Part shown: one piece after another, positions 12,834 through 45,099 of the stretch
Layout of the letters: every line of letters begins with the position of its first letter
Position numbering within the stretch: position 1 is the first letter of the stretch
NCBI GenBank assembly: GCA_012845835.1
Contig: JABAKD010000005.1
Location: 5,394,155 to 5,458,154, forward strand
DNA length: 64,000 nt
Source of the DNA: Undaria pinnatifida
Lineage: Eukaryota > Sar > Phaeophyceae > Laminariales > Alariaceae
Reading direction: 5' to 3'
Position numbers and translations under genes: made by a program
Notes under the pieces: model-generated
Database searches by the model: none
The model's input: only the letters and a program-made list of their open reading frames with translations
Told to the model about the DNA's origin: nothing

Positions 12834-13668
12834 GTCATTTCTAACGACACTTTATGGCAAGTTTCTTGCCAATTTGGCAAGGTTTTGGGAGTTTGGACGT
12901 GCCAAAATAGCACAAAACTTGCCAAAGTTTGTTCTGGATATTTCCGTTCCGCTTCGTTGGCAAGTTTTTGGAAAGTGAGATTTGCCATTTCATTTGCCAC
13001 TTTAGCCAATAACGCCAACGCAAGGTTGTACAAACCAGACCACCCCACGACGCCCGATGCTAGACTTGCTCCAAGTTCCGTTCCGCTTCGTTGGCAAGTT
13101 TTTGGAAAGTGAGATTTGCCATATTTCATTTGCCATTTTAGCCAATAACGCCAACGCAAGGTTGTACAAACCAGACCACCCCACGACGCCCGATGCTGGA
13201 CTTGTTCTAACTTCTGTAATAGCGGGAGGTACGGAGGATACACGGTGTCATTGGCAGCAGCTATGATAGGGCTGGCGGCACTGGCCGTGAGGCCCGCGTG
13301 GATGCCACATGGACATCGTTTTGAGCGGGTGCTGAAGCATCATCACAAACAGCGGCCGCCCCAGCTTTTCGCAGGCGAATTTAACCGGGCTGGAAGGACG
13401 GCCAACCTCTGAGGTACATGGGCTGTGCCTCGAGTCCTTTCTGCGCCAGCGTTTACTCCATAGAGAGCGTCGGCGTGCCGTTGGCTCCCTGCTGCTGCTG
13501 TGAGGGGTTTGAATAATAATATCTGAGGGCGCTACGAATGATGACAAAACTTGCCAAATGCGCAGTGTTTCGCGTTATAATCTGTTGTCGTCTCTTTGGA
13601 AAGTGTTGCTAATTTTTTCTCGCTAAATAGCAAGTTTTTGGAAATTTCGTTTGGTCGTTAGAAACGAC
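12834..13668. mobile_element. MITE-like element with 15-bp inverted ends
   Basis: The outer 15 bp match as an inverted repeat at 14 of 15 positions: 'gtcatttctaacgac' at 12,834-12,848 and, reverse-complemented, 'gtcgtttctaacgac' at 13,654-13,668. The 835-bp interior is rich in 'ggcaagttt' and its reverse complement and holds a 134-bp tandem duplication. No transposase frame is visible. I could not confirm a target-site duplication, so the element boundaries rest on the inverted ends alone. Confidence 0.45.
12945..13206 (+). repeat. About 134-bp tandem duplication
   Basis: A unit starting 'ccgttccgcttcgttggcaa' and running through 'gccaataacgccaacg' to 'cccgatgct' occurs twice head to tail, at about 12,945 and 13,079. 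The copies are nearly identical; 'tatt' extra bases near 13,122 are one visible difference. The resulting open frames on either strand repeat the same peptide and are by-products. Confidence 0.85.
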
Positions 13669-14570: not shown

Positions 14571-15394
14571 GCGAGAGAGCGGTGCGGCGGAAAAAAAAAA
14601 GTCTTTGGCCCTAATGACACACGCCATCAAACATGTTGTGAAACCTATACTTTCGATCCTTGAGGAAGTCCTCATTTCCTCAGTGAGGAAGGAGAAAGTA
14701 AACCTCTTTGCGTGATGTGCTAGCCGTGGCTATCTGCAAGCAACAACCATCATGTTCGCACTTAGGATCGCCGTGGGCCATGCGGTTGTATACTCCTCAC
14801 TGGCACAGACCGCAGACCAGCTATCGAACGTCCTCCTGCTTTTTTAGGCATATGCTGGATGCTGGATGAAAGGATGGAGGCAATCACACCCCAACGCGAC
14901 GATACAGGTCAGCCAACAAGCAGTGCAACCGCGCAGACAGCGACTTCCCCAGCAAACGGTAGATATATCAAGTTGATTGAAGCAAGCAGTATTCCTGCCG
15001 GCCTCGAGGTTGCAACCCTGTATAGACCACGCTGCTCGGCGCCAGGGCCCCAGGTACAAGCTACCAGCATGATCCGTCGAAAAAGTTCAAATCCTTTGGC
15101 TGGGTTTTAGTGGCAATGGTCAGGCGTTTGTAATATTTCAATCCGGGGACGCATAAAATCAGGAAAAATCAAAATATCAAAATCATGTCGTTCGTGATTT
15201 TTGGCTTTCTGTCATCCGGCTGATACAAGACATCGGATCTGCTTGGAGCGACCGATACAACAAGGAGGCCCGATTGGGCGACCTCAGAAGCACATACCAC
15301 TCTGTGCCACTGCGCCAGGGAGATTCGTCTTTGAGGCGTCTACGTGTACAGCAGTAGTCGAGATTGCATCTGCGCACGTGTGAGACGCTTCGCG

Positions 15395-15574
15395 ATGGCA
15401 AGCATGCGGCGATTCGCCTTGATGTTTTCCGCGGCGACGGTCAGTTTGCTCTCCAACCTGAGCAACTTCGCTCTCCGACAAGTCGTTGTGTACGAGGTCG
15501 GAAAAACGGTGTACGAAGGCGCTACGTACGTGCACCAAGGCGCTGGGTATGTGCGGAGCCGAGTGGTGCCCATG
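15395..15574 (+). CDS. Candidate first exon, unit A (60 codons)
   Basis: An ATG opens a 180-nt frame ending exactly at a strong donor (CCCATG then GTAAGC). The peptide starts MASMRRFALMFSAATVSLLS, a basic N-terminus followed by a hydrophobic run that could be a signal or targeting sequence, then QVVVYEVGKTVYEG. The copy in unit B has the same start, donor and length. It lies upstream of the other exons on the same strand, so I place it in the same gene. However, its phase (0) does not meet the next credible exon (17,050) without an intervening exon. It could also be the first exon of a separate small gene. Confidence 0.5.
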
Positions 15575-15831
15575 GTAAGCACCTCTCGCTGCTGTTTGTT
15601 GTTGATTAGGATCACCACCATGTTAAACCAAAACGCGCAGCGTCAACGATGCCATGCCGGTGCTGTTGTAATTGTAATCATGAAGACACATACCACACAT
15701 ACGTTGTCGGTACGAGTACGTTTGATATCTCCGTTGCATACAGCGGCGCTGGCGATCAGTTCTGCAGGTATCGTCGCAACTATGATCAGTTTCGATAACT
15801 GGTGATGTGGTATGAAGCGCTGACCGTGAAG

Positions 15832-16043
15832 GCGCGACAAGTGCTCGCTTTTCACTCCCGCGTACCAAATACGACCTCGAAAAACAACACATACCGTACA
15901 ACTCATATACGTTCGGTGTTGCCGTCTTCGAGCTTGGGCACCCGCGATCGAACGAAAACAACGTGTTTCATTTCACCACTCGGCCTGCGCATCAAATGTC
16001 ACCTCGACGCGGACACATGCACGAACCCACGGATGACCGAAGT
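15832..16043 (+). CDS. Exon-like stretch, unit A (tentative)
   Basis: After a possible acceptor (GTGAAG) the frame is open for about 70 codons and reads like a real protein segment: FSLPRTKYDLEKQ, then YNSYTFGVAVFELGHP and NNVFHFTTRPAHQM. A second frame is also open here, so the choice rests on composition and on the mostly conservative differences from unit B (for example L to I, synonymous CAC to CAT). The donor is not clear and no domain is recognised. Confidence 0.35.
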
Positions 16044-16136
16044 TGACCCCGACCTCATGGCGCATCTGAACAGATAACGCCCTCTCCGCATTGTGGTGTG
16101 TTCTTTCGATTCGTGACAGCTTGCGTCATACAGCAG

Positions 16137-16195
16137 CGGGCATGATTTCGACGTGGACAACATCCCTTGCCTGCCTGGGCCGATGTCCGACGAAG
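16137..16195 (+). CDS. Small candidate exon, unit A
   Basis: This short stretch lies between CAG acceptors (about 16,133-16,136) and a GAAG-GTGATG donor. It encodes HDFDVDNIPCLPGPMSDE. The copy in unit B at 34,489-34,547 keeps the splice signals and differs by one conservative replacement (N to S) and one silent change I can see. It is too short to assign a function. It does not by itself fix the reading phase between exon 1 and the exon at 17,050. Confidence 0.35.
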
Positions 16196-17049
16196 GTGAT
16201 GCGTATTATTTTCACTTCTCCCTTTGCGTTTTTCGTGCGAGCCGATACTTTTTAGCTTTACTTGTGAGCCGATGCAAGTCTGGTTGCGTTGAGTGCGTGC
16301 GCTGTCCTGGTAGACTTTCTTGGTCGGGTTTCCTGGCTCCCTGCAAGCGAGGCTTGCATAATTACCTGAGGACCCCTTAACAGCAAACACATGGAATGTA
16401 TCGCACTATTTGTCGATCCAATAGCAGGGAGATAGCAGCTTCCATACCTCGACCTATCCCATTCAACCACGAAACAATAAATTAATATTAGGCGTATGTA
16501 TGCTGCCCCGCACCCTCGGATGCACTCTTTTCAAAGGAAGCTCATCTTGAAGCCCCCACGAAAACCTCAACGATGCGAACTAACAGCAGTCAAGCTCTCG
16601 ATAAGGCAACACGTGTGCAAGCCAGCCCGGGAGTGGTTCGTTCCGAACCGTCCGCTTGTCGTTCTCGAAACTGCCATGCAGCACATACATGGAGATCGTT
16701 GAATTTGATTAGTGGCGGTCGCACAGGCTGTACGATGTCCACGTAGTTTGTGAGTCGAAATCGGCTCTAAATACTTTTTACCTGTACCAAGTATGCGTCG
16801 GAACGATGGCCAAAAATAACGATCTCCACCAAAATATTTATACAACAAGCGAAGTCCCCCGGTGCAGTCCCAGTGTTGCAGTAGTGGTGTGGGCAAATAT
16901 TTACCCGTAGAGAGTACCTTTGATGAATTCGTACCGAAAACCTCGACTTGCTTCGTATGATTTTCGCACCAACGTATACCAGCATTACACATAGGCATAG
17001 TCTATAGACTACATGGATACTTCTGCAGTATGTTGAGGGTTTCTTGTAG

Positions 17050-19464
17050 GCGACATGCTAGTGCTAATGCTACGGTTGCAAGTTCATTAACCCCCGCCAC
17101 CGCCAACACCGCTGCGTTCCCGACTTGGCCCTTGTTAGAAGACGATGGCGTAGAAAGCGGAGAGGAGGTGGACATCATCCCCTCGAACGACCCCTGCCGC
17201 GTCTCCTTTCCGACAACTGAAAATGAACTGTCTGGCACTCCGGCTACCCTGGGAGAAGGCTGTAAAGGTGCCTTCCCGCGGAAGGTGGACCGGTCTGGTG
17301 TTCAGATCGGAAAGGTCAGTGGATACTACTGCTGCTGTACCTACCGCAACAATTGGGGCCCCGGTATGCCACTAGTGATTGGTGGTACTGAGGCGCGGCC
17401 TCAATACCTGCAGTAGTCGTATCTGCGATGCATCGTATGTGGAGTTCCTTGTAATGTATTGGCAGCTTCTGCTGTTCTCGACGAGTTCGTGGGCTTGTGT
17501 TTGCTTGTGGGTATATCGTGCGGCGGAACTAAGGTATTGTGGGCGTGCTTGTGGGTATATCATGCGGCGGAACTTCAACTCTACTCTTCTTTTTTGTGGG
17601 TACATCGTTCGGCCGAACTAACTCTAACGATGACCGCGAGCTTCTGTTGTTGTTCTCGACGAGCTTGTGGGCTTGTGGGTATATCATGCGGCGGAACTAA
17701 CTCTACTCCTATTGTGGGTACATCGTAGACCAGAGCCGGATCAGTGTCGCTGTGCGTGTGTCTCGTCGATCAACCTCCGGAAAATAAGTACTCGTACAGC
17801 TGCGGCATAGATAATTCTCCCGTTTTTTTCAGTGGAACTCTTGAAGGGATAGTCTACATCTTCGATCACCAAAACACAAGCAACATCGGAGAAACCCATA
17901 CTGAACTCGTATATTACGTAGCCCAGCAATGCCTGTGAAATCACACCTTGCTTGCACTCCACCCAGTGTTGGCGCCTGCGAAATCACACGTTGCCGCACC
18001 CTGTCTCGACGAACTCTCAACTACTTACAGCGAAAACAGCACAAGAAGAGTTGTCTGTTTTTTGTGCGTGCACAGGACCCGTCGCAACCGGCCTTGGTGC
18101 CGTGTATGTTGAGTACGGTGGACAAACGCGGCTGAACGGAATGTCGACTCAAACAAACACACATACACATACACACAGATACACTAATTCAACATACCCT
18201 ACCCTGGTATGCGATCCGACATGAAGAGGCTTTTTTCCCTTGGAAAGCCAAGAAAAGAAGGCTCGCGCTGCGCGTATCGCGCGCCTCATTATTAGCAACG
18301 GAAATATATTCAATGGTATCAGGTACGATCTTATTCGCCGTCCACTTTTTGTGTGAGCACGCAATTAATAGTACAATGCCGTGCGCATGCCGTCGGAGAC
18401 CTACTTGCAGTGTGTTAATAGCTCCCGAGGGTACATCCTCTACCTCAACAGCTTGACTTGCTTGGTGTGGCCGATGCTGTAACGGGCGTACGTTATATCA
18501 TCATTTCGATAATTGTTCCCCTTGAAGTTCTTGCCCTCCACGTGTTTTTCAATGAATTGTTTTCGATGTCGTCGTCAATGTGCTCACACCGCATTTTCGG
18601 GCGGTTGAAGGAACCACGGTTACGTGAAGGGATCACTAACCGAATTTGAGAGTATTCATTGCCGAGGCTAACGCACATACGGGCGAAAAATGGCGTCTGG
18701 ACAGCCACCGGTTAAAAAATCTCCTGTGATCTGCGTCCCACACCATTTTGTGATCCTACAAATGTAAACTAAGAATGTATCGCGAGCTTATCGTAGCGCC
18801 ATACTACGTGAACACTACGCTCCCGTTTTTTCGAGCAGACCCTTCCGCGTGTTGTCCTGGGACGCGACCTACCCGGCAAGCGTCATTTTGAGCGTGCGGC
18901 ATCTACAGAGCAAATCTCGTCCACTAGCGGCGGAGCACGGAACGGCATGGTCGATGTACCAGACGCTCGGGAGGTGGGTCGTGCTCTGCAAGCGCTATCG
19001 TAGCAATGTATCGTCTGCTGCGCGGTTTTGGCGTGGGAAAAATATTGCCGGATAATGTGCCGTGATTGGTTCCATCATGAAAACCTTGGCAGCGGGGTTG
19101 CCAAACGCGCGGATATCCTACTGTAACACGAAGAAACCCCACGACGACATGGGAGGAAACTACACTACGTACGTGTCGTAAGAAATATACCAGATATGCT
19201 CTGTAGGAAATGGGCGGAAACGAGAATGATCAACGCGCTGGGAGACTAAGTGGACGTCGAGGGGAAAGGAAAGCTGAAGATGGACCAGAGATTGCGTTAC
19301 ACTCGCAAAACACATCCTCTACACGATGTCTACGACGTAGTGTATGTGCATGCTCGCATTCGTCGTCAATTTTGTCACTTAGAACGTTCTCGAGATTTGT
19401 GGCCGATCCAGTACGTGGCAAACACTAAGGCGTGTACAACGTTCACAGCCCCGCCCCGCCCCTC

Positions 19465-19497
<33 letters not shown>

Positions 19498-22400
19498 CGG
19501 TGTTGTCGGAAATACCACCCTGCAGGGAAAAACTCTTATTGATCGCCCCGGCCACGGAGATTCTTCCATTCAAGGTGAATTCAACTCTAAAAGAGTTGTC
19601 GGAATGGAGGTTTGGCTTACCGGTACAAAGCCGTCTGTGTAGGGACTTGCGTATACTTCGAAGTACTGCACTCGTTATTGTTTTTTCCACCAGTTTGACT
19701 CGTCCTCACGTCACCCCTGCTTCTCGAACCTCGTCTTTTCGTTTTGATGGTACCGCGCTGAGCTTTGAATTAAGCTACCCCTCCCAACCCCCCTCCAACG
19801 AGCGCTTTCGTACAGACAGGCGGTGGTTCCTCGCAATAGAAAAACGTGTCGTTCGTGTGTTTGGTTTTCGTTCCTGTCATGTCTATATTCAGACGACGAC
19901 TCGTTGTTCACGGAGATGTGCCGGCTGGAAGCCAAGGAGGCCCCTCCTTGGGAGTCAGGCGGTGACAACGTGTCGACGTGCTGGCTGACCAACATTACTG
20001 CCCTGCCCGAGGAGGGGGCCTCCCGCCCCATCGACGGTCAACACGTCGAGCGTTACGCCGGTGGCTCCGCGGCTGCCAGCAGCAGGAACGACCAGGTGAA
20101 CAGCAACGCCCCGTCCGGCTAATCGTGTTGCCTTGAAAACATAAACGGCCGAAACATTCGAGCCGTGGTTATGACTTGGCCCAGCGCAGCTTGGACAAAG
20201 TTGTTGAATCGTGCCTGACTCTAAACCCTAACCCTAACCCTTTGCTCCTAACCCCGACCGCCTGGGATAATTATCGGAATAATCTGGCTAGTGACGATTC
20301 CGTTGCGTTAAGATGTCAACCGTTTTGTCGGAGCTGGGCCTAGAAAGTTATGTACTAGAACACTGCACCGAAAACTTCGAGTACTAATCTGTACAGTATC
20401 GTATATCGCCCTTCTCGATCATTGTAGTATACTCGTAGTATAAGTGAATCGCAGTCGTTTCGATGGCGGGGGTTCGGTTGCTGGCTTGTCATTGGGTCTT
20501 GTGACAGTAAAAGTTTGATGCACATTCGTGCTGTCGTACATACGTTTTATCCGACCAAGAAAACGTTGCTCATGCTCACCCCCGGTTTATTGGCGGCCAT
20601 CCTTGGTAATCAAACGTATGATATAATGATATTTCTTCCGTGTCATTGTGTCTCTTTTTCTTTTTCTTTTTTTCTTTCTTCCGTTCCTTCGTATATTTTC
20701 TTCGTTTGCTTTCTTTGGGTTCCTTATTTTTCCCTTTTTTCGTTGTTTCCTTTTTTGTCTTCATTTCTTCTCTTTTCCTTTGTTCATTTACTTTATAACG
20801 TGTCGCCACACTCTTCATGTTTCCGTAGAGGATCGACGAACACGCGCTCATGTGTCCGTGTTTAGCTGAGACGTACGGTGCTTGGTATATACCGTACTCT
20901 CGCGTTCAAATCGGTATATCATTAGAAGTATACTGTAGTAGCTTACTCAAATTCCAGATGGAGGAGGCATGTGGTTGCTCATCCTCTTTGTACACGCGGA
21001 AGACGCGTTCCACCGTCGCGTGTTTCAACTTTGTCTGTTGCTTGGATGACAGCGATGTATGAACCATGCATGTTCCAAATCTTCAGCGCCGGCCGTGGAA
21101 GAAACGAATCCCGAGGTGACTAGAAAGTATTTTCCTCTGTCCAGCGGGCGCTGTCCGTGCCAGCAGCAGCCACGGAACAACTGCTAAGCGATCGTGACAA
21201 AGCAATCATCGACATGATACACGCTTCTTACGGTCCTTGCGACCTTGCTGCTTTTGCGCCTCCTATGTGTGTACTCCACAGGCTCTTGTCCCTCGCGCTG
21301 AGCCTGGCCCCCTGGTGGTTTGGTTCTCGCCTACAAACATGTGTGCCGCGACCACGCCTGTCCCTCGCGCCGAGCCCGGGGCCATGGTGCTATGGACCCC
21401 CTCTGCCGAGGCATCTTTTCCGTCGTACGATAAGATTGTGGCAGCTCGTTGGTGCTGCTACAGGATGATCAGCGTTCCGACACTAGAGAGCCATGCAGGA
21501 CAAAGGTGAGCGGTGTTGCGAAATGCGTGCTGGGCCCTAAACGTCGTTGTTGTTCGTTTCCAAGGTTCTTCTCGATACGCTTTGTCTCAAGGTTTGATCG
21601 CCCGCCTACTCCAGCTGGTAGCCAGGAAGATCGAAACGTAACAGAGTACCATATGTATATATGATACTACAGAGTATAGTTTAATGAGTAAAGGCGACCT
21701 TTTGCATTTCTCCTTACAGCTTTCGTCGGTGGCGTTGGATATTGCAAGACAAACACCGCTACTCGGAGTCATGGTGCCACTGTTTCGTTTTGTGGACTGC
21801 CAACAAAGCCGCCGTTTTTACAGGCACCTAATGTCATTTCACCCGTCTGAACCCCCGCACCTCATGTGCTCTTCATATGCTCGGGCAGCAATCCGGCTGG
21901 AATTTTATTGACATGCTCCCCATTACAGTGTTGACATCAAAGGCCCACGTGTGGCATGGTATGATATGTATCATGCGAGCTACCATAAGAGCACCTCAAG
22001 CCATTTGGCAAACCTGGATAGGCAAAATATTGTTGGGCACGAAGGTCAAGGTTCCCTCTTGACTGTAGCATGGCTCATAGCTAATCATCTCCCACGCTAG
22101 CACTTCGAAGAACTTCCGTAGTATGATACGTGCAGTATTTACTGTACCTGGTTTGTAAGCCGCCCCGCATGTTGCGTTTTGCCCCTGGTAACGTACTGCA
22201 GGCACCTTTTTGACGTCATTCTGGTGACGCGGCACGCCCGCCGGATGTTCAGCGCGTTCGCCTCTTCCCCCACGCTAGAGGCCACCGGCGAATCAACGCC
22301 AAGCGTGAGCGGCGACACGTCGGTGAGCATTTTGGTGTTCCAGCAGCTCGCTCTAGCAAAAGCAGTTGGACTTACTTTATGTTTTGTGCAGGTTTCGTTC

Positions 22401-25400
22401 TTGGGTCTCCATTGTTTTTTTTCCCCATTGTGTTTTATGAGTGATCGCAGTTGAAGCTAATGCTGCAGTTTGTCGGATGGAGAACATAGCAAGAGAAGCA
22501 CACACTACACGCGCGAGTGCTGCGCTGGCACGCTGGTTAAGCGTCGGACTGACACATTTTTAGGTGCCGTGTTCGTGGTTCAGGTACCACTACGGTATGT
22601 GTGTACACCCCTCAGTTCCGCGGCTGTCAGATGCTGCCCCCCTCAACGCGGGTGATATATTCTCTGTGCGCGAGATTATTGGTCTACTGGGTCACCTATT
22701 TTTTTCGTCGTCCTGTTAACCCTGGTGGCGCTCGTAGCACTTAGGGAAGTCACCGATTTATATCCGTCATGGGACCATATCATATACACCCCGTAGCAGC
22801 CGCGGTCGAAGTCTCACGCACAGCTACAGCTGCGGTGTTCTATTTTCATTTTTCAACTAATATTCGACCGATATTCCAATATTCCCGAAGGTTGCAGTTC
22901 TTTGAAGACAAACCATATTCCACGGCAAATCTGGGCATCTTTTGGTGTTGTATTAAGTTTTTTTTGTTTTTTTTTGTCATGTATAGACTACTCACTTCTT
23001 GGGAACAAGAGGAAAACAGCGGATCTAAAATGTCATGTCGTTCTCTTTGGTTCTCTGTGGGCGAATCAACCGTATGGCTTGTTGTGTACAAGGGCAACTT
23101 TCTGGTGGATACGACTAAACGATTTGTTCGTGTTCTCAAAATGATATAGACGTCGGCTAGTATATTCACAAATTTTCTCCAAAGTAGTTTTTTTTGGCCG
23201 ATTTGGGGGGCACGGAGAGTTTTGCATGAGTTCTTGGGGTGGCTTGTCCTAGGTTGTCATCGTTTTGTAAGTGTTGAACTCTGGATTTTGTCTTCGTCTC
23301 AGCATCAATCCTCTTGTCTCGGCGGTCATTTGTTGGTTCATCTAGCAACATGGCTATTCTCGTTGCTGTAGTTTTGACCGTAATACACACCATTGGAAAA
23401 ATTGTGCGGGATGGATCATATGTCGGCGCCAGTTATTGTCCCCGATTCGACCTCAGTGCCTTGCCCCGCCTTGTACCGCCTTCCGCGATGCCGAGTTTGG
23501 AAAGTGCGTCGTTGACCATGCCACGAGCCTTCGAAGCCGACGAACGCATTGATGGCAAATCTCTGTTGCCAACCAACCCTGCTCTCTGTCTGTCTCTCCC
23601 TCTTGGCCATCCCTACATCGTTCGGCGCAAAGGTGATTGCTGTGGAAACTGATTCCTGGTGGGAGCCGGGACTGTTTACCATCGAGGTCGCGAGGACACC
23701 TTGCACCGTGGAACACCGGCCTGGCCCCGGTGAAGAATCGACGCATCCCATCGGCCATACGTCGGTGAGCAAATTCCCCTGACTCCCTGTCTCGGTGCCA
23801 GGAGGTATATTATACCCATACCCACTATACACATTCCAGGGTGTTTCGCTTCGGTATTAGGCATCGGCGCAGGTCAAACTGTGTCCTATTTCGTCTCAAT
23901 AGCTCCTCCCCTGCGTCTTGTATCTCCTTCCCCGCTGCCGTGGTCAGTAATCACATGGTTGATTACTTCGTGAGCCTTGAAGCTCACTACCGTACCAATG
24001 GCCTTTTTTTCTCTCTCCCTCATGCTGACATCGCGCGTATTCTCTCCCTCTCTCTCTTGCCCATCCCCTCATCGCCTGACGGTAACCCAACTCAGCAGGA
24101 GACTCTACCACAAGGTCCGACGGTTGTGTGGTTGGAACCGGAATTGGCCGGCATAGACATTGCGAGAACACTGCAGCACGGAATCAGCCAATACGTACGT
24201 CGAATGCAAGTTTCTTTCGTGATGCCGGAGCCGGAGCCGACCGCTGCTGACGGCGCCGCCGGGTCCGATGTCCGCGATATTTACGATGGGGGGGCTACGG
24301 GCATGACCTCGACCACCACGGAGCACCCATTTTTGGGAGACCATGTCGTCAGGTCTACGAGTAAAGGCCACCGGGTAAAGGAAGCTTATCCCAGCAATGG
24401 CGTCCTCACGATGCCTGACATATCTGCCGTGGCTGACGCCCTCGGACCTTGGATGTTGGCCGCAGGAAGGGGGCTTACAACCTATGCGTGGATGTCTCGT
24501 TACTGGGCACCTACTCGTAAGGGGAAGACCGGTACGGCCGGGTGGACGGGTTGCTGGGTCCTCTTGTGTCTCTTCGGGACTTTGTCGCCGGTTCTGGATA
24601 GCCTCTTCGCGAAGGAGACATTGCTTCCCGTGTTCTTTCTGGGGTGGCTATTGGCGGCAAGCACATGGTTTACGCTACTCTTTCTGGTCAATCTGGCGGG
24701 GAGTGTGGTGCTGGCCCTTGTGAACCCGACTGTTGTGACGTGGAACATGGTGTGGGATGTCGGGTTATCTCTCGTGAGCTCGACCGTTGTGGCTGCCAGC
24801 GTCTTCATCCTGGCTGCCATTGCATCGATATGGATCGTGGTCGTCGATGAGCTCTGGCTCGAGCGGAAGCAGCAGGTACGTTGCACTCTCGAGCGACGTC
24901 AATTTGTGCCGCAGCCCTAGGTTACAGCGATAAAAACAAACGGTATCCGCAGCAGCGCTTGGATGGTTGATGCTGTTTGCGTGGTGTGATTCATTGGTCG
25001 GTCGCGCGAGGGGAGCGGTCATAGCATCAGTTCTCGTTGGGTACACCGGCATTGCAGCTACGGTGAGGGTTTCAAGCGTCAGGCGGCAGTGTTATGACGA
25101 TACGGTCCGTGCCGCAGCCTTGTCTGGGCGACGATAAAGTTGGCCTCTAGATTTGTCGACGTGGAGGATCGAGAGAAACGCATGCTTGAGCTACGCCACA
25201 GTAGGGGGTAGGACCACTTTGGGCCTAATTTGTTTCTGACTGGCCGGGGTTCTCAGCTGAGGAACGAACATCCAATTCCTTGTTTGCGACTCTGATTGTG
25301 TCGTGCAATTGGTTTCGTTACATACGTAGCCGAGGGGATTGATTGGTTATTCATTGGGTTACGCGCACAAGGCATCTCAAAGTCGTTTTTGTTGTGAGGT

Positions 25401-26696
25401 GTACAGCTCCTCATGTTAAGAACCTAACGACAAAACAGGTACCACCCGCTATCGTAGCGTGTGCCTCGCTTGACGGAGCATCGTGTCACCTACAACTTAA
25501 CAAACAGTTTTTTCGTCCCCAATCAAGTTCGCCCATTGTGCAACCGTCCAGCGTCATTTTTACCGAAATGGATTATCTTCATGGGGAGAGAAGAAAAGCT
25601 GCATGTCTAACCATGATCACTTTTCCGCCCCTCTCGTGAACCCTGGCTTGTGTGATTGTTCCTTTTTTCGTTATACAGATACCTTCGACGGTGACGCTCT
25701 CCCCTGCGGAGTCCACCCCTTCACCAGCACAGCCAGAGGCCTCGCTATCGTCATCATCGACCGCGGTTGAGTCAGTTCCCGTCCGCCACGCGGTCCCTGT
25801 CACCGAGACGAGGGCGGAGAGGAAAGCCCGCCGAAAGGCTTGGCTGATTGAGCGCCGGGTGCGTGGCGTCGGCGTCCATGAATCCGCCAAACGGGTCCGG
25901 ATGCCCCCTAAGGATGAACCCCTTAAGGATGGGGGGAAGGGGGGAGGGGGGGAGGGAGAAAGTATGGAGGGTAGGGGGAAAGTTTTCAAGGAAAGGAAGA
26001 AGGGCGGGAGGTGGAGAGAGGGAGGGAGAGCGGAAGGCATACATAATTGGAGGGAATGAGTAAGGGCAGGAAGAAGCGGAGGGATAGTATATATATCTAG
26101 GGAGGGGAGGGGAGGGGGGGGGAGGGGAGGGAGATACTACGGGAGGGAGAGAGGGAAGGAAGGAAGGAAGGAAGGAAGAAAGATGCCAGGTATGATATAT
26201 GGAGGAATGCATGAAGGGAGTAACTACTATAGGTGTAGCACGTTTCGGCCTAAACGTTTCTGCTGACCACCGGGGTCGTCAACTAATGACTACACTACCC
26301 AAACACATGGCAACCCCTTCTTCTGTGGTTTGTATAGATGTTGGTCGTATTGGCATGCCTAGTCAATGTGGGTGTTTGTACAACTTTCATCAAGGTCAGT
26401 TTACGGGGCGGGTGAAGCGCTGAGTTCATCGAGTGAGGAGCCTCAGACTAATTAGGTGTTGCCCAAGGCGTGGCTCGCGTCTGAAGGGTGGGAGAGGGGA
26501 AGGGAGGGAAGGGGGGGGTAGGCAGGAACAAGGGAGGGGGTTCGGGGGGGAGGGTTTAAGGAAGGGGAAGAGGGAGGTGATCGCACGGCTTGCGCGTTCT
26601 CTTTTCTCATGCCCCTCTCCCCAACAGGGCACTATACGCACCCGAGAGGATGCGGGCGGCAGAGGCCCTATGCCGTTCGTAGGTACCAGGCGATAG
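17050..26696 (+). CDS. Multi-exon gene, unknown multi-pass membrane protein, unit A
   Basis: Proposed exons are 17,050-17,314; 18,774-18,999; 19,893-20,095; 21,282-21,505; 22,202-22,322; 23,633-23,764; 23,948-24,875; 25,679-25,858; and 26,628-26,696 (stop). Most have AG acceptors and GTGAGC, GTCAGT, GTACGT or GTGCGT donors. Phase fits at every junction except the one between 23,764 and 23,948, so one boundary there is wrong. The donor after 18,999 (GTAGCA) is weak. The seventh exon is the largest and holds the membrane segments. Early exons encode acidic, Ser/Thr-rich soluble segments (for example LLEDDGVESGEEVDIIP). An AATAAA follows 68 bp after the stop. I recognise no family. The start may be the exon at 15,395 or lie in unseen exons. 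Confidence 0.6.
19465..19497 (+). repeat. (TCG)n microsatellite, unit A
   Basis: About eleven TCG triplets. The unit B copy (37,805-37,837) has the same overall length but is interrupted ('cctcgttg'). It lies in an open frame that would read poly-serine, but I found no splice chain using it. Confidence 0.9.
20221..20240 (+). repeat. Interstitial telomere-type island, unit A
   Basis: Three CCCTAA-type hexamers in a row ('aaaccctaaccctaaccc'), inside the proposed intron between 20,095 and 21,282. It matches the TTAGGG telomere type seen in many stramenopiles and animals. Confidence 0.75.
23948..24875 (+). CDS. Large exon with membrane segments, unit A
   Basis: The acceptor follows a long pyrimidine tract (CGTGGTCAG) and the donor is CAGCAG-GTACGT. 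About 309 codons. The first two thirds are soluble: HMVDYFVSLEAHY, then a Pro/Thr-rich stretch with MPEPEPTAADGAAGSDVRDI. The last third is strongly hydrophobic, with likely spans at GCWVLLCLFGTLSPVLDSL, LLPVFFLGWLLAASTWFTLL continuing into FLVNLAGSVVLALV, and SSTVVAASVFILAAIASIWI. It then turns acidic and basic (VVDELWLERKQQ) before the donor. This predicts three or four transmembrane helices with a basic C-terminal tail encoded by the next exon (ERKARRKAWLIERR). I recognise no channel, transporter or enzyme signature. Confidence 0.65.
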
Positions 26697-26764
26697 CTGT
26701 ATATTTAGTAGGATGATAAGGACAACCAAAGCACCGCAGTGGGCAAACGCTGCCTATATTGTGC

Positions 26765-26770
26765 AATAAA
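26765..26770 (+). terminator. Poly(A) signal, unit A gene
   Basis: AATAAA, 68 bp after the proposed stop codon at 26,694-26,696. Identity between units A and B falls sharply about 20 bp further on, so this is close to the end of both the transcript and the homogenised block. Confidence 0.55.
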
Positions 26771-27578
26771 CAATGCATATATCTCGAAGTGTTAACCTTG
26801 GCCTTGTTTTCATTCTCGTTTTCTTGCCAAGTACCAGGTGCCAGGTAGTATACAACAGCAGTTGTCCTGCCCTGAACCGCACCTTGTAGTTCCAACAAAT
26901 GGCACGCACCGCAGCAGTACACGAGTATCACCTCGTACCCGGCACAATTTCGTAGCTGAACCACGCATGCAAGCCTCGCCCCTTCTTACGATAGATGCTA
27001 AGACCGCAACGCAACTTGAGTTGGAGTGGTTCAAGAAATGGTTCATACGAAACGCTGGTAAAACAATGATGTTCACCGTCGGTCTACAGAATTAAAGCAA
27101 TGGAATTTCTAAGATTTAGCATCACCGACCCTGAACCTGATGCCCAGCCCTTCACTCAACGACAAGCGCAATCTCTAGTCAAGCTGTGATACGTGTGTGG
27201 TAGAGCTTGGCTCAGACATATACGATTGTACTATCTGTGTCAGCATTACAACCAACCTCGTTAATAGAGACAACCTACTCGGAAGTTGGGTAGGATTGAG
27301 GCTAATGCAACCCATGTGGGACTCGAGAGGGGAAACCCGACAAATGGAATTCACGACTCCAGCATCAGCCACACGAACCAGCACGAGCCCTTATCATGCC
27401 ATATCCACTATGCTGCACGCTCACGCTATCGTAATGCGCTTGCTTCTCATTTGTGTTATCGCTGTACATGGGCCCTATGGCCCTATAGGGTACAAATGTA
27501 AAATTCAAAACAAGGGGTTTCATAACATGTTTGGTGGCATGTTCCGGTGGATGGAGGTTCATTTTATTTCCGCTGCGT

Positions 27579-27822
27579 CGCAGGTGCTGCACACACGCCA
27601 CAGCGGACCCAGCCGCTACCTGCCTGTCTGCCTGTGCCCCACGGCGTCATGGTGCGCTTAATCGAGGGGGAAACCGTTGGGGGCGCTGATGTCGCTAGCA
27701 TGAAAGGAAGTTTGCAAAACTGCGAAATGAACACCAGAGCAAACTTGTACTCGTACGGGTTCCTTGTTTCTTGCGAGACCCTTGGGGGGATCTGGACGCG
27801 TTGTTGGCTTTCCAAGCACTGA
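27579..27822 (+). CDS. Exon-like stretch downstream of the gene, unit A
   Basis: After a possible acceptor (TGCGTCGCAG) the frame reads HGVMVRLIEGETVGGADVAS, then NCEMNTRANLYSYGFLVS. It resembles the minus-strand exon-like stretch at 14,294-14,570. It lies about 0.9 kb beyond the poly(A) signal of the preceding gene, in the part of the unit that differs by about 10% between copies. It could be the start of a second gene related to the 14.3-kb one, or a relic. No donor with good phase could be fixed. Confidence 0.4.
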
Positions 27823-28691
27823 GAAGGACTACGAAGGGGGTTCAGCTCCGCGCTTGCCAAGAGTAAGGAGTGGCCCGGTCCGCTTCAGCTTGGCCGATAA
27901 TTCTGCGATCATCAATTTGACTCAGACATTTTCCGACACTGAAGTCCCGGGTAGGTTCGAGTAGAGGCCACTACTACCTTCTTCCCCCGTGCATGAGACC
28001 AAGCTGCGTCCCCTGGTGTAAATCCCGTGTTCCGTCCTGTGACTAACATGGCGGGAGGTATACAGCCATCTGCTACTGTTCTCAATGTAGAAAAAAAGCG
28101 AACACTAAAGAAAGCCAGGCTGCTAAATTCGTTTTGACAAAACGTCCGGTGGCCGCGGACCTCAAAACAGCAACAACGATACTACAGGAGCAGCGCAATT
28201 GTGTCAGGGGCACAGCAAGAGTCGCAGAGAAGGACGGGAATCGAATTTTGAATTTTGAAAGATGAGTTCTTAGCTGTGGAGGTGCCTCGCGAGGTTTATC
28301 GACGGTTTTGTTGAGAGCAGCAAGAATAAGCGATGTCAGTTTTTTCATGGTATGTGATTGCTGGCAGCAGGGATTTGAAGAGGTTGTTCCCTGATGGTCT
28401 GAGCAGGTGTTGGTTGAATCCCTTGGCGGATCTGGACTTGGCATCATACAGCACATACAGCACATACAGCACATACATGCAGACGGTGCGGAATCCACTC
28501 TGACACGACATATTTGTTGAGCTCGGGTATATGTGATAGGTGAACTGGCTGCGTTGTGTACCGGTCGCCATCTGCAAATAAATCACGAGTGGCGGTCGCT
28601 CCGTCTAGACGAAAAAAAATCATCTAAAAACGCTACACCGACGTGGCCAGACCTCGTGATCGTGCCAGCATTAGAGTAAAATGCCCTATTA

Positions 28692-30050
28692 AGCACACCA
28701 TAAACCACCCCTGGCGCCATCCTCTGGTCTGCTGTCAATAAGTTGGTTTCATCATAAAACTTAGTATCAGACGATAGCTAAGATCGCCCTTTCGTCTTCC
28801 GAGAGGAAAAAAAAAGAGATATTTATATAGGAGTTAGAGGCTGTGCGGCATGTTACTCCTCGCCGGGAAAAACAGGTGAAAATGTGGGTGCTTGCCTAAT
28901 AGGCACACTTTTATGTATTTGCTGATTGCGCACGTTCTGGAGCGTTCCAGAAGCCCAAGCTTGGTATGCATATCATGGGCATCAGTGGCAACGATGTCAA
29001 AAAAAAAAATCACACCTGGACACATAACCGGGGATGTTAACGGCGTATCCCCGGTTTTTCGGGGCCGCAACTTTGGGGCCAATTTACCTGTTCTCGGCCA
29101 GTTTGCGTGCCCCCTGCACATGGAGCGACGAAGAACAAAAAAAAGGCATGCATGTGACCAGCTCATGACATTTGAAGACTACTGCAAACAAAAAAAACAT
29201 TTCGGAGCCAATTTGACGATTTCACAGTCGTTCAAACAGAGGCATGTTTTTGCTGATTTACCTGCCTCTACGGTAAGAACTAGCCCCGAAATGCCCCAAG
29301 CTATTCCCTACACGAGACGAGCCTATCCCAATCCCAAACCATGCCACTCAGTGAACACGTCCACCCTGTTGTCAAAGACAACAGAAACAAATGACAGTAC
29401 ACTCCGTAGTAGTGCTCTATAGTGTGTATCACCCAACAGGGGACAAAAGAACCCTATCCCCGGCTTTAGCGCCCAGCCCTGGTGTACCACGCTGCCATTC
29501 GAATGGGGGCGGTAGAACTCCCCCGCTTCATCCTCTACTCACCCGCAAACCTTCAATACTGCTGCTACCGCAAACACTCATGTAGTTTGGAGCTGTTTTG
29601 ACTCTTCTCTAGCGCCCTGCAAGGGAGGATAAATTCCCCCTAGCTACCCGTATCACATCGCCACGGCAGTAGTTCACTCCAGAAAACACCTATCCGGAGC
29701 TGTTACAATTCCGACGGATGCATTGTATCCCGTCTGCACCACTTGGAGACAACACAGAAAAAAAGAGAAGGAACGCATAGATCAGGGGACAACAATGAGG
29801 CATCCCCTTTTTCGAACCAAACCTCCTAAACCCCGGCCTGCTTCGCATGACTTCCATGTGCTTCGCGTACCAAACGCATTTTCGTCTCAAAACAAGCACA
29901 CGTCTCGGTGGCTGGGGCTACCGGTGCCAAGACAAAAAAAAATGTGCGGAAGAGCAAAACGTTTCGACTACACGTCAACAATCTGCCGGGGCGTTCGTTG
30001 CCTTCCCGCCCTTGACATGGCGGGCGTCATCTGACGTGCGGCAGGCCCCG
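28692..30050. other. No gene recognised within the insertion
   Basis: One plus-strand frame (28,892-29,422) ends near a GTAAGA donor at about 29,273 and contains a repeated FGANL phrase, but it shows no family features. I treat it as unassigned. The rest is non-coding as far as I can tell. Confidence 0.4.
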
Positions 30051-30053
30051 CTC

Positions 30054-30475
30054 CTACCACCACCCCACGGCCACGACCATCTCCGCGCCCCCCGACAACT
30101 CCCACACGCCCGGCACCCCCCCTCCCACGGCCACGACCATCTCCGCGCCCCCCGACAACTTCCACACGCCCGGGACACCCCTCCCCTCCCGGAGACGATG
30201 ATCTCCGCGCCCCCCCCCGCGCCCCTCCCGGCCACTTACAGTTGCGCGCCCCCGACCACCTGCCTGCTCGTCCCGTTGATTTCCCCTTCCAGCACCGCCA
30301 CCACGCCCCTCTATCCCTCGCCCCCTTCCACGTACGTCCCCGGAACCTCTCCCCCCCCCACGTTCCCGCCCCGCTACGTTTGCCTCGCTCTCAGCCCTCC
30401 TCATCATGCGGAGTCTGGCTCTCTCAGCTCTCTCCGCTTCGGCCTCCTTCTTTCGGCGATCGTCTTCCTCGTATG
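30054..30475 (-). CDS. C-terminal tail exon of the transposase
   Basis: After an acceptor (GTTGGCAG) the minus-strand frame reads YEEDDRRKKEAEAERAERAR, a charged probable coiled coil, and then becomes Gly/Arg-rich with two near-identical repeats containing LSGGAEMVVAV. Charged or basic tails like this commonly follow the catalytic domain of DDE_1 transposases. The donor linking it to the catalytic exon is not obvious near 30,510-30,530, so the join is an inference. The Gly-rich end partly reflects the 60-bp DNA repeat. Confidence 0.45.
30064..30200 (+). repeat. C-rich 60-bp tandem repeat
   Basis: A unit with 'ccacggccacgaccatctcc' followed by 'gcgccccccgacaact' and 'cacacgcccgg' occurs at 30,066 and 30,126. 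A partial third copy ('atgatctccgcgcccccc') starts near 30,197. Repeat length is a multiple of three, so it preserves the minus-strand frame. Confidence 0.8.
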
Positions 30476-30509
30476 CTGCCAACACAGCGTTGCAAGTAAG
30501 AAGCCCGCT

Positions 30510-31419
30510 ATCCGGGACCTATCCGGGACTCCTCCGGAACTTCGAGATATTGCCCGTTTCTTGTTGTATCTCCTTGTCTTGACGACCCCGCCAAGCATCA
30601 CCGTGCCGACACGAAGGCCGGTGATGGTGTATCCCTGCTGCTGCAGTTTTCGGACGGCGCGTTCGCCGAGACTGTCCTGCAGCTCCTTCTCTGTTATCGC
30701 GACCGGAATGTCCGAAAGGGCCTCGCGGTCGGTCGGGCGTTCCTTCCGCTTTCCACAGCCTTGCAGCCGGCCCATCGCTTTCTCCATGTTCACAGGCCAC
30801 AAACCAGCGGCCGCAAAAGATGCGATGTTCTGCTCTTTGGAGAAGCTGGATCGGAAAGCCTCGCCGATGATGCCGACCATGTCACTCTTCAAGGGCGTTC
30901 TCCCCCCGTGCTCTCTCGGGAAGCGTGTGAGCACCTTCGTCATCTGCTGCTTGAACGACCCGAAAGCTGCAACGTCCAAGGGCTGGGTGATGTGCGACGT
31001 GTGGGACGGTAGCAGGAAGAGGACGGTGCTCAGTGTTTTCGCCAACTTGATGACGTCGAAGTTGACGTGTGAGGCGTGGCCATCAAGCACGAGCACGTGC
31101 GGCTTGCCGTCGAGCAAGCCGCGTTCTTCCAGCTGATTGTGGAAGTCCTTGAGGTACTCGACGAACACGGAGCCCTGCATGGAGGACGATTCTGTGGCGG
31201 CGTATCTCGCGTTCTCTGGCTCCTTGGTTTCGTCCATCCACGCCGCTTGCACGCGCTGCCCTTTGAAAATTATGAGCGCAAACAGAACGTCGCCCGCCGC
31301 ATTGATCGTCGTCACCATCGTCATGTTTTCCCGTGAATTGGAGCGCACTACTGTCGAGACCACCTTCTGCCCACACTCCGCAATCAACTTGAGCGTCTTC
31401 GTGTCTTGTGGCGTGGCAC
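30510..31419 (-). CDS. DDE_1 (pogo/Tc1-mariner type) transposase, catalytic exon
   Basis: A minus-strand exon begins at an acceptor (GGATTACAG) and stays open for about 300 codons. It shows TTINAAGDVLFALIIFKG, then the second catalytic Asp in VLVLDGHASH and the third in SHITQPLDVAAFGSFK, 35 residues apart. This is the DDE_1 fold of pogo-, Jerky- and tigger-like transposases, and the frame after the third Asp (FSKEQNIASFAAAGLWPVN) is also typical. The first catalytic Asp (usually DETG) and the helix-turn-helix/CENP-B DNA-binding domain are not in this exon, and I did not find them upstream. The gene is therefore 5' incomplete or has an unseen exon. The enzyme family cuts and pastes DNA elements in the nucleus. 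Confidence 0.75.
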
Positions 31420-31693
31420 CTGTAATCCAAAATATATTGGAGCGGGGAGTGAAACGACCATCCCCGGAGGGGCAGGTTGGACAGAGCGGTGGTGTAAGCC
31501 GTTGTTTCTTGCGCACAACAAAACGAGCCGATCGTCGTGTGGTATGGCCCACCATACAGCAAACATTCTGCATGCGACATGGCGAGTTGAAGGAAAGGAG
31601 CGGAGGGTGTATGCTGGCTCGATGGGGGCTATCGCGACAGAGATGAAAGTGATCGCAACAGCAGTGCATTTCTCCTCCAACTACTCGTACCAT

Positions 31694-32150
31694 TTTAGAC
31701 TATTAATAGACTAGACTAGACCACGAGTACCTTAACCCTAACCCTAACTCTAGACTAGGCTAGATTTCTCCGGAGTAGTCTAGTCTAGTCTAGTCTAGAC
31801 TATACTAATACAAGCGATGGCGATTCTCGCACAGAACAAGGTTCACAAGAGTCTATTAATAGACTAGATTAGACTAGACTAGACTGCACAGGCAACAGCA
31901 GGAGCAGCAGCAGCAGTCTGTGTCATGGCGCACATGAACTTCAACGTGAGAAAGAGAAACACAGAGATTTTTTTCACCCAGCAGGAGTGAACGGCGCTGT
32001 TCGTCCCGTCTGCTCGATACCAGTCTGAAGTCAAAAGGACAGCATCTAGATCTAATCTAAAGTAGCTACTCGTGAGAGTTCTCTCCTGCGGGGGAACAAG
32101 AAAAAAAACCAGGATCGGCAAGAATCTAGTCTAGACTAGACTAGACTAAC
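31694..32150. repeat. CTAGT/AGACT pentamer patches with telomere-type island
   Basis: Pure runs of the pentamer 'agact' or its complement 'tagtc' occur at 31,694-31,718, 31,774-31,804, 31,852-31,887 and 32,124-32,149. Because 'ctag' is self-complementary, these can fold into hairpins. A CCCTAA island ('ttaaccctaaccctaact') lies at 31,730-31,747. Short relatives ('tagtctatagacta') occur at 16,998, 33,174, 35,338 and 48,254. Confidence 0.8.
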
Positions 32151-33709
32151 GGCTGCGGTATGTAGATCACCGCTGTACAGCGCAGCCGTGGGGGCGCAGG
32201 GTCTCCTCGAGCGACGGGATTTTTTTGGCGCGAAAATTCAGCAAGCTGCCAGATCGTGGTCGGTGGCGTTTGTCAACGAGCAACTGCTGTCAACGCCAGC
32301 GAGTGCGGCTGCCGATACTTTGGGCTAGAGCTTCGAAGCACTGGTAGACTACGTGTGTAGACTACAATAGTAGGAACTTGGGCTCATCAATCGGCGCTCC
32401 TCCCGTATTATACCCGGCGAGCCTACATATGGTCTAGATACCCCACTCTCGCGTATCTAGCATAACAAGACAAACAAACACCAGTCAAGCACACGTCAGG
32501 CATAACGGGCAGGACACTTCCATACTGTACCACCACCACCACAGCAGTGCACGGTTGGACCGGCAGAAGATTGCACATCATCAGAAGAATTGGAAGATTG
32601 AATGTGAAAAAAAAAAGTGCAAGTAAGTTTGTAAGTTTCTGGAGAGCGTATACTAAAAATAAAGATCCGGGCACATATTAGCACGATATTGCGGATTTCT
32701 GTACTACTACCTCATAAATCGATCGGTGTCCAGTTCGACTTTCGACTTTCGACTGCGGAGATGCCGAGATTCCCACGCATGAATTATCCTGGCGAGGTCA
32801 TGATCCCGGATCGTGGGTGAAGCTGCACCGACCGTTGGTTGATGTGTAAACAATACTTGTACCGAAGGCTTTTTTCTAGCTACCTTTTTCTCTAACAGCA
32901 GCGGTATAGACTAAAGGTCATCTCGAATCTCGACTCTTTCGACTCGACCACTCTTTGTGCAAACATTGCTGCTCACTGCTGCTGTTCAGTTTGCCCAATC
33001 TCAGGAGTTCCTCCTCGCTCTAGCGCCCTCTTCGCGTGACATGCCATGACTATCTGCAAAGCAACAACCACCATGTCCGCAGTCAGGATCGCTGTGGGTC
33101 ATGCGGTGGTACACTCACTGGCACAGACCGCAGGACCTAGTAGAGGTATTGAACGTCTGTTTTCTCGGCATAGTCTAGTCTATAGACTACCTGGAATGCT
33201 GGATGCTGGATGATATGGTGATCACATCCCAACGCGACGATACAGGCCAGCCAACAAGCAGTGCAACCGCGCAGACAGCGACCTCCCCAGCAAACGCTAC
33301 ACATTTCAAGTTGATTGCAGCAAGCAGTATTGTTGCCTGCCTCGAGGTTGCAACCCTGTCTAGACCACGCTGCTCGGCGCCAGGTACAAAGCATGATCCC
33401 TAATTGAAAAAGTTCGAACCCTTTGGCTGGCGTTCCAGTGGCAATGGTCAGGCGTTTGTGATATTTCAATCCGGGGACGCATAAAATCAGGAAAAATCAT
33501 GTCGTTCGGGATTTTTGGTTTTCTGCCATCTGGCTGATCACAAGACATCGGATCTGCTTGGAGCGACCGATACAACAAGGAGGCCCGATTGGGCGACCTC
33601 AGAAGCACAGACCACTCTGTGCCACTGTGCCAGCGAGATTCGTCTTTGAGGCGTCCACGAGTACAGCAGTAGTCGAGATTGCATCTGCGCACGTGTGAGA
33701 CTCTTCGCG

Positions 33710-33889
33710 ATGGCAAGCATGCGGCGATTCGCCTTGATGTTTTCCGCGGCGACGGTCAGTTTGCTCTCCAACCTGAGCAACTTCGCTCTCCGACAAGTCG
33801 TTGTGTACGAGGTCGGAAAAACGGTGTACGAAGGCGCTACGTACGTGCACCAAGGCGCTGGGTATGTGCGGAGCCGAGTGGTGCCCATG
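33710..33889 (+). CDS. Candidate first exon, unit B (60 codons)
   Basis: Same structure as the unit A copy at 15,395: ATG, 60 codons, GTAAGC donor. I see no amino-acid difference between the two exons, although the introns on either side have diverged. That pattern is what selection on a protein would leave, but local gene conversion would give the same result. Confidence 0.5.
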
Positions 33890-34146
33890 GTAAGCACCTC
33901 TCGCTGCTGTTTGTTGCTGATTTGGATCACCATGTAGGACCAAAACGCGGAAGCGTCAACGATGCCATGCCGGTGTTGTAATTGTAATCATGAAGACACA
34001 TACATACCACACATACGTGGTCGGTTCGAGTACATTTGATAGCTCCGTTGCATACAGCGGCGCTGGCGATCAGTTCTGCAGGTATCGTCGCAACTATAAT
34101 CAGTTTCGATCACTGGTGCTGTGGTATGAAGGCGCCGACCGTGTAG

Positions 34147-34365
34147 GCGCGACAAGTGCTCGCTTTTCACTCCCGCGTACCAAATACGATCTCGAAAAAA
34201 AACGCACATACAAGTACCGTACAACTCATATACGTTCGGTGTTGCCGTTTTCGAGATTGGGCATCCGCGATCGAACGAAAACAACGTGTTTCGTTTCACC
34301 ACTCGGCTTGCGCATCCAATGTCACCTCGCTGCGGACATATGCACGAACCCACGGATGACCGAAA
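34147..34365 (+). pseudogene. Exon-like stretch, unit B (frame disrupted)
   Basis: This is the unit B counterpart of the exon-like stretch at 15,832, with a better acceptor (CCGTGTAG then GCGCGAC). It keeps FSLPRTKYDLEK. Near 34,196-34,215 it is 8 bases longer than unit A, which shifts the frame before the conserved YNSYTFGVAVFE segment. If this exon is real, the unit B gene copy is damaged here. If it is intron, the change is neutral. Confidence 0.35.
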
Positions 34366-34488
34366 TTGGCCCCGATCTCGTGGCGCATCCGAACAAATCG
34401 ACGCGTTCAGACAATGTTTTTCAAAATAGCGCCCTCTCCGCGTGGTGGTGTGTTTTTTCGATTCGTGACAGCTTGCGGCATACAGCAG

Positions 34489-34547
34489 CGGGCATGATTT
34501 CGACGTGGACAGCATCCCTTGCCTGCCTGGACCGATGTCCGACGAAG
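34489..34547 (+). CDS. Small candidate exon, unit B
   Basis: Counterpart of the stretch at 16,137-16,195, with the same acceptor and donor; it reads HDFDVDSIPCLPGPMSDE. The surrounding intron sequence has several indels between the units, so the better conservation of this short stretch mildly supports coding. Confidence 0.35.
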
Positions 34548-35389
34548 GTGATGCATATCCTTTTTTCACTTCTTCTCCCTTTTCGTTTTCGTGTGAGCCG
34601 ACGATTTGGTTAGCCGATGCAAGTCTGGTGGCGTTGAGCGCGTGCGCTGTCCCGGTAGACTATATCTGGGTCGGGTTTTCTGGCTCCCTGCAAGCGAGGC
34701 TTGCGTAATTACCAGAGGATCCCTTAACAGCAAACACATGGAATGTATCGCACTACTTGTCGATCCAATAGGAGGGAGACAGCAGCTTCCATACCTCGAC
34801 CTATCCCATTCAACCACGAAACAACAGATGGATGTTTAGCGTATGCTGCCCCGCACCCTCGGATGCACTCTTATAAGAAGTTCATCTTGAAGCCCCCACG
34901 AAAACCTCAACGGTGCGCACCAACAGCAGTCAAGCTCTCGATAAGGCAACACGTGTGCAAGCCAGCCCGGGAGTGGTTCGTTCCGAACCGTCCGCTTGTC
35001 GTTCTCGAAACTGCCATGCAGCACATACATGGAGATCGTTGAATTTGATTAGTGGCGGTCGCACAGGCTGTACGATGTCCACGTAGTTTGTGAGTCGAAA
35101 TCGGCTCTAAATACTTTTTACCTGTACCAAGTATGCGTCGGAACGATGGCCAAAAATAACGATCTCCACCAAAATATTTATACAACAAGCGAAGTCCCCC
35201 GGTGCAGTCCCAGTGTTGCAGTAGTGGTGTGGGCAAATATTTATCCGTAGAGAGTACCTTTGATGATTTCGTACCGAAAACCTCGACTTGCTTCGTATGA
35301 TTTTCGCATCAACGTATACCAGCATTACACATAGGCATAGTCTATAGACTACATGGATACTTCTGCAGTATGTTGAGGGTTTCTTGTAG

Positions 35390-45031: not shown

Positions 45032-45099
45032 CTGTATATTTAGTAGGATGATAAGGACAACCAAAGCACCGCAGTGGGCAAACGCTGCCTATATTGTGC

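Follow-up and report, generated by a model that had tools for sequence, protein, structure and literature searches.

Putative gene conversion between two tandem gene copies of Undaria pinnatifida, bounded on one side by a presumed retroelement

The DNA studied here, a stretch of 64,000 nucleotides called the window, comes from Undaria pinnatifida (contig JABAKD010000005.1, here C52, positions 5,394,155-5,458,154). Self-BLAST of the window found one large direct repeat, consisting of the tandem units A and B, each with a copy of the same gene. The two units raise the question why they are nearly identical over most of the gene and clearly diverged on both sides of it. An earlier sequence-only reading had placed a near-identical core at 16,560-26,790, between edges diverged by about 10%, and had suggested recent gene conversion. 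Conversion between paralogs is recognised by local near-identity that includes non-coding DNA, sharp edges, a patchwork, diverged flanks and discordance with a third copy. In our study, repeated interlocus gene conversion between the tandem copies A and B, stopping at an insertion in B, was found to be the best explanation, with a probability of roughly 0.87.

Pairwise alignment of A and B gave three parts. Left of position 16,582, 125 of the 1,784 sites were different (7.0%; 8.0% outside exons), followed by 190 of 10,186 (1.87%; 2.0% at non-exon sites) in the core and 169 of 1,849 (9.1%) in the right flank. The indel events in the left flank, core and right flank were 25, 8 and 18, or 13.5, 0.78 and 9.65 per kb, respectively. 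A two-state hidden Markov model (HMM) was preferred by the Bayesian information criterion (BIC), which was 3927 as against 4226 for one state and 3959 for three states, and it set the edges of the core at 16,581/16,582 and 26,781/26,782. A step was also found to be better than a logistic gradient. At the left edge the Akaike information criterion was 1082.9 vs 1118.7 (step better by 36; two-unit support 16,578-16,609) and at the right edge it was 1234.9 vs 1286.2 (step better by 51; two-unit support 26,759-26,791); each edge was placed within ~40 bp. The identity of the paralogs in the core was well above that of the adjoining homologous DNA and the edges were abrupt, as is characteristic of a conversion tract. 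The GC content of A hardly differed between the core (0.516) and the flanks (0.516 and 0.503).

Most of what the sequence-only reading had claimed was borne out by these values. The 780 bp at 17,461-18,240 contained one difference, the "about 20" differences at 27,100-27,300 were 19 mismatches and one gap, and 32,400-32,849 was diverged, with 57 mismatches and 28 gapped bases in 450. Its borders were close and are refined here by the HMM and the changepoint to 16,582-26,781. The sliding identity showed the predicted plateau and two steps, with an average of 98.1% instead of 99% and without being uniform; a smooth gradient is ruled out, and the even divergence that was named as evidence to the contrary was not found. 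Exchange over the gene body applies to exons 3-11, which lie inside the core, whereas exons 1-2 lie outside it, in the diverged left part.

A third copy of the gene, C, was used as the outgroup. It was found in the 100 kb of sequence taken on each side of the window and lies on the minus strand, with homology at ~C52:5,526,550-5,539,480, ~68 kb past the end of the window and at a distance of ~90 kb from gene B. A three-way alignment was made separately, which accounts for small differences between its A-B values and those of the pairwise alignment. The copies were near-equidistant in the left flank (A-B 8.2%, A-C 9.5%, B-C 9.6%). In the core, A-B was 1.85%, A-C 11.72% and B-C 11.90%, and at the non-exon core sites A-B was 2.0% vs 13.5% and 13.7% to C. 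The core is therefore not slow-evolving and its introns are not constrained, and the distances indicate that the homogenisation of A and B came later than the divergence of all three copies. The site patterns AB|C, AC|B and BC|A numbered 90, 68 and 65 in the left flank (1,755 sites) and 1,062, 91 and 74 in the core (9,836 sites), a shift with a chi-square of 244, and the relationship of the copies clearly changes at the left edge. The ratio of the A-B distance to the mean distance to C was 0.86 in the left flank (block-bootstrap 0.63-1.17) and 0.16 in the core (0.11-0.22), or 0.23 (0.18-0.28) when the badly aligned middle of a repeat and the last 340 bp were left out. Across the left edge it was 0.85 (0.52-1.26) in the 350 bp before and 0.12 (0-0.35) in the 350 bp after. 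The patterns at the right edge were 42, 1 and 0 in the 174 sites before it (26,524-26,697) and 57, 18 and 17 in the 454 sites after it (26,802-27,266). A global three-way alignment of the right flank (A-C and B-C 44-45%) was dropped, as C is largely non-homologous in this part, and the locally matched stretch was used instead; the rest of the right flank had no alignable C sequence.

The core was found to be patchy, and identical runs of up to 762 bases alternated with islands near the divergence of the flanks. When the mismatches over 14,731-28,672 were shuffled 2,000 times, the longest difference-free run was at most 346 bp, and the window dispersion was at most 1.76 against an observed 8.00. 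When only the core was shuffled, a run of 762 was reached in 1 of 2,000 shuffles and the dispersion of 4.27 in none of 2,000. The right flank alone, taken as a control, looked random (dispersion 0.75). Three islands (see the table) had ratios like that of the left flank, and we take them for stretches that escaped homogenisation or that belong to older tracts. Exon 3, which lies partly in an island, contained four synonymous and no nonsynonymous changes in its whole codons, as expected of old divergence under constraint. A further stretch at 24,977-25,498 was rejected as an unconverted island; A-C was 15.9% there and the ratio 0.27, which marks a fast-evolving stretch. The stretch at 23,840-24,040 was ambiguous (ratio 0.44).

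Most of the 762-bp identical run lies in a dispersed repeat within intron 3, of which C has both ends and a different middle. The 780-bp "identical intron" of the sequence-only reading lies in intron 3, but it is mostly this repeat. Used as a query, the 780 bp gave at least 110 matches in the own genome (40 of the 528 candidates were scored; own-genome searches covered 511.1 Mb in 68 contigs), many of them pieces ~80% identical; the matches on C1 and C25 were considered as gene copies and are repeat copies. The repeat was also considered as a young insertion carried between the copies, which is unsupported, as C keeps both of its ends.

The right edge of the core coincides with the left end of an insert in B. 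The last mismatch-free stretch of the core in A was 26,548-26,781 and the junction of the insert lies at ~26,787. This insert is absent from A and from C, and since C also lacks it, it was gained by B. Its frames are broken and contain the end of a reverse transcriptase (RT)-type open reading frame (ORF) as well as a Cys-rich segment and a recombinase. We take it to be a tyrosine-recombinase retroelement of the DIRS-like/Ngaro type, with the proteins P0004 and P0015 as its database relatives. The recombinase matched the Pfam ALOG_dom profile at 29.2 bits (cut-off 26.6) and Phage_integrase at 16.9 bits, below the cut-off of 27.1, and it was 81% identical to P0004 across 66% of the joined query. 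P0015, an RT protein of 737 amino acids with an RVT_1 domain, was matched at its C-terminus by only the first 24% of the query from the insert. The left end of the insert falls within an ORF that is related to P0015, and the copy is therefore apparently 5'-truncated. A 96-nt direct repeat was present near the 3' end (at 47,119 and 47,480; 84%), with no clear terminal pairing. Homology-dependent repair needs homology, and exchange stops where homology breaks. Homology is broken at the insert, which is the simplest reason for the exchange to stop there.

The history of the locus may accordingly be outlined in a few conditional steps. A and B would be tandem duplicates that diverged from each other for about as long as both did from C. 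Later interlocus gene conversion between A and B would have covered exons 3-11 together with their introns, probably as several tracts that differ in age and that left islands of old divergence, and the retroelement in B would have broken the homology and set the right limit, so that the 3' flank beyond it stayed diverged. Transfer was putatively non-reciprocal rather than by paired crossovers.

Several observations weigh against this explanation. Divergence was uneven within the left flank outside exons (dispersion 2.87; 9 of 2,000 shuffles gave as much). No large heterology was present at the left edge, which falls within intron 2, 386 bp past exon 2. The right edge is one edge and one observation; that the insert brings about the stop, and does not simply happen to lie there, is our inference. 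Discordance at the right edge was partial, as C was 17% from both copies in the right flank and A-B was 8.6%; the greater distance of C there returns the ratio from 0.02 to ~0.5 (454 alignable sites) and not to near 1, which speaks to some degree against a perfect three-way star on that side. In the left flank AB|C was in slight excess (90 of 223; p 0.028 vs one third), so that A and B may along the whole locus be marginally nearer to one another than either is to C. The private changes in the core were near-balanced (91 in B and 74 in A), with neither copy clearly nearer to C. The conversion, putatively non-reciprocal, is deduced from the sequence of one assembly.

Slow evolution of the core by selection or a low mutation rate, introns included and with no exchange, has hardly any probability. 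The exons are conserved, with a ratio of nonsynonymous to synonymous divergence (dN/dS) of ~0.4 for the whole coding sequence (dN 0.0093, dS 0.0231), and local constraint does exist outside the core. A and B did not differ in exon 1 (0 of 180 sites), and 15,346-15,601 around it, the only low-divergence HMM segment outside the core, was 1.6% from C (4 variable sites in 253); as C is also close there, exon 1 need not be a small conversion tract. However, C was 11.7-11.9% from A and B in the core (13.5-13.7% at non-exon sites), more than the 9.5-9.6% in the left flank, and slow evolution is refuted by C unless C alone was accelerated in the core. The synonymous divergence of exons 3-11 (dS 0.022) was about equal to the non-exon core divergence of 2.0%, so the core introns were not specially preserved, in keeping with a tract that is young over its full length. 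The sequence-only reading had held that selection on protein cannot explain the identity of the introns and had proposed this comparison of introns with exons; both the distances to C and the near-equal divergence agree with it. A recent duplication of A and B (~2%) with later replacement of the flanks and islands from diverged family members is unlikely. It is plausible that more than two members take part in conversion, as the protein P0003, described below, is a mosaic of C-like and A-like parts. However, replacement needs events on both sides and in the islands, and no donor was found with the left flank of A as the query; its nine matches across the assembly included only B (86%) and C (88%) at near full length, and the remaining three sizeable copies were just 73-78% identical to P0001, the template protein of our gene model, in exon 10.

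Unequal crossing-over, in which the array expanded and contracted with one crossover in intron 2 and another near the insert, is likewise given little chance as a substitute for conversion. Tandem direct repeats favour it, and two crossovers would leave the same end state as one conversion. Against it, old divergence is kept in both flanks and the islands survive, so that many paired crossovers would be needed. Of the earlier claim of recent exchange, the exchange as such is supported; the word recent carries no date, and paired crossovers give the same end state. An artefact of assembly or polishing, in which a mixture of reads from A and B led to a partly merged consensus of the core, is improbable. 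The passages of PMC7058681 on the probable source assembly describe PacBio data (subread N50 11.5 kb) with Arrow and short-read Pilon polishing and a k-mer survey that gave 0.48% "heterozygosity", all of which would leave room for mixing. Yet the same passages name a gametophyte clone from one zoospore as the source, in which two alleles are not expected. A core diverged by 10% would moreover be separable, as the flanks are, and merging would yield 100% and not 98% with clustered differences near the level of the flanks.

Table. Coordinates of the features of units A and B in the window
Feature	Position	Strand	Remarks
Unit A	14,723-32,849	+	Self-BLAST; interrupted by 3.7-kb insert (~28,673-32,363)
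Unit B	33,043-49,938	+	Self-BLAST; interrupted by 2.4-kb insert (~45,123-47,566)
Gene copy A	15,395-26,059	+	11 exons, 817 amino acids; model based on P0001, with splice sites conserved in B
Copy A, exons 1-6	15,395-15,574; 16,120-16,195; 17,139-17,314; 18,839-18,973; 19,526-19,574; 19,893-20,095	+	
Copy A, exons 7-11	21,282-21,505; 22,202-22,322; 23,633-23,764; 24,099-24,875; 25,679-26,059	+	
Gene copy B	33,710-44,394	+	817 amino acids; all 11 exons open
Left diverged flank of A	14,731-16,581		
Homogenised core in A	16,582-26,781		
Homogenised core in B	34,922-45,117		
Right diverged flank of A	26,795-28,672		Aligned with B 47,567-49,474
Insert in A only	28,673-32,363	-	3.7 kb; DDE_1 transposase ORF 30,404-31,699, minus strand; self-BLAST, Pfam
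Tyrosine-recombinase retroelement (presumed)	45,123-47,566	+	B only; 2.4 kb; apparently 5'-truncated
Dispersed repeat, intron 3	~17,386-18,293 (A); 35,726-36,633 (B)		Short inverted ends TAnTGAGGCGCG
Island	22,833-23,221		A-B 9.2% (three-way), ratio 0.80; two-state HMM; read as not homogenised
Island	19,531-19,612		A-B 11.0%, ratio 0.86, 82 sites only; two-state HMM
Island	17,242-17,457		A-B 5.6%, ratio 0.71; three-state HMM only, not preferred by BIC

The gene was modelled with the Undaria pinnatifida protein HiC_scaffold_5.g01935 (P0001) as the template. The introns had GT-AG borders common to A and B, every exon was open in both copies, and the two proteins showed 17 amino-acid differences. 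The 11-exon model supersedes an earlier one of 691 amino acids, whose first donor site is not kept in B. P0001 was present in C over its full 818 residues, as 11 collinear exact pieces; C is therefore the gene of that protein, and the 11-exon structure is independently confirmed. The protein of A contained four hydrophobic stretches resembling transmembrane segments at residues 584-680. P0001 had no match in Pfam (E up to 0.1) or PDB (E up to 1), and its AlphaFold model, with a mean predicted local distance difference test (pLDDT) score of 32, was not used. A telomere-like repeat, CTAAACCCTAACCCTAACCC, was present at 20,221-20,241 in intron 6 of both A and B.

The family was found to be larger than the three copies. 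With P0001 as the query, all 51 matches listed (55 of the 79 candidates were scored) were on C52, and the sizeable gene copies among them were A, B, C and those at ~4.45 Mb, ~4.49 Mb and 5.84 Mb, together with fragments; the three copies other than A, B and C matched P0001 at 73-78% in exon 10. The copies at C52:4451801-4459778 and 4492745-4500895 lie ~41 kb apart in the same orientation, with 78% and 77% identity to P0001 in exon 10, respectively, and are possibly a second duplicated pair. P0003, an unnamed protein of the European Nucleotide Archive from a 2.7-kb contig, matched the C locus over its whole 452 amino acids at 92.9%, and the matching reading frame in C was open over the 452 amino acids. 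At the 39 residues at which A differs from P0001 and P0003 agrees with one of the two, the first 12 of P0003 comprised 11 P0001-like and one A-like residue, followed by 26 A-like and one P0001-like among the last 27 (none of 10,000 permutations was as extreme). The switch from the 5' part of the C locus to an A-like 3' part was near position 24,250 of A, and P0003 and A have the two derived residues N532 and S600 in common. P0003 is either an A-C transfer in another strain, with C inverted and ~110 kb away, or a chimeric short contig.

A wider reading, which we offer tentatively and hold somewhat doubtful, is that element insertions serve as fences and so determine the part of a tandem pair that remains in concerted evolution, and that exchange reaches beyond A and B. 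The retroelement in B and the DNA element in A would then bracket a 1.9-kb 3' flank that escaped homogenisation, and the 10-kb block upstream, which no insert interrupts, would have been rewritten repeatedly. If so, transposon insertions set the limits of concerted evolution. The locus is a clear natural example of a gene pair in concerted evolution, for which the same chromosome also supplies an internal outgroup. Exons 3-11 would give misleading trees or dates for these kelp paralogs, whereas the older history is preserved in the 3' flank and in introns 1-2 as far as they lie left of the edge.

Outside the two units, the window contained a Copia-type retrotransposon with broken frames at 51,245-56,272 on the minus strand, in which RVT_2 and SH3_retrovirus were above the cut-off and the integrase core was below it, and a 136-bp repeat unit at 12,942-13,204 (1.9 copies, 96% identity). 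No Rfam family was matched in the window at the gathering thresholds. Two runs of 5,000 N bases lie outside the window, 150 kb apart (C52:5327155-5332154 and 5477155-5482154).

Gene conversion of the interlocus kind is well known between paralogs, for example in the tandem arrays of T. brucei (PMC1855330) and in human segmental duplications (PMC3790853). The passage in the text of PMC5463336 concerns GC-biased conversion. Among the titles listed on gene conversion in kelps, brown algae or Ectocarpus, none was about conversion of nuclear paralogs in a brown alga, and a search for conversion tracts together with heterology gave no paper. Like DIRS-like/Ngaro elements, the insert in B has a recombinase with an ALOG/phage-integrase profile match and a relative among RT proteins; unlike them, this copy is apparently 5'-truncated and is frame-broken and has only the C-terminal part of the RT protein. 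The core of A and B resembles the interlocus conversion systems in its near-identity that includes non-coding DNA, its sharp edges, its patchwork, its diverged flanks and its discordance with a third copy. It differs from those systems in that A and B belong to a nuclear gene family of a brown alga, that one edge lies at a retroelement private to B, and that the non-reciprocity is putative.

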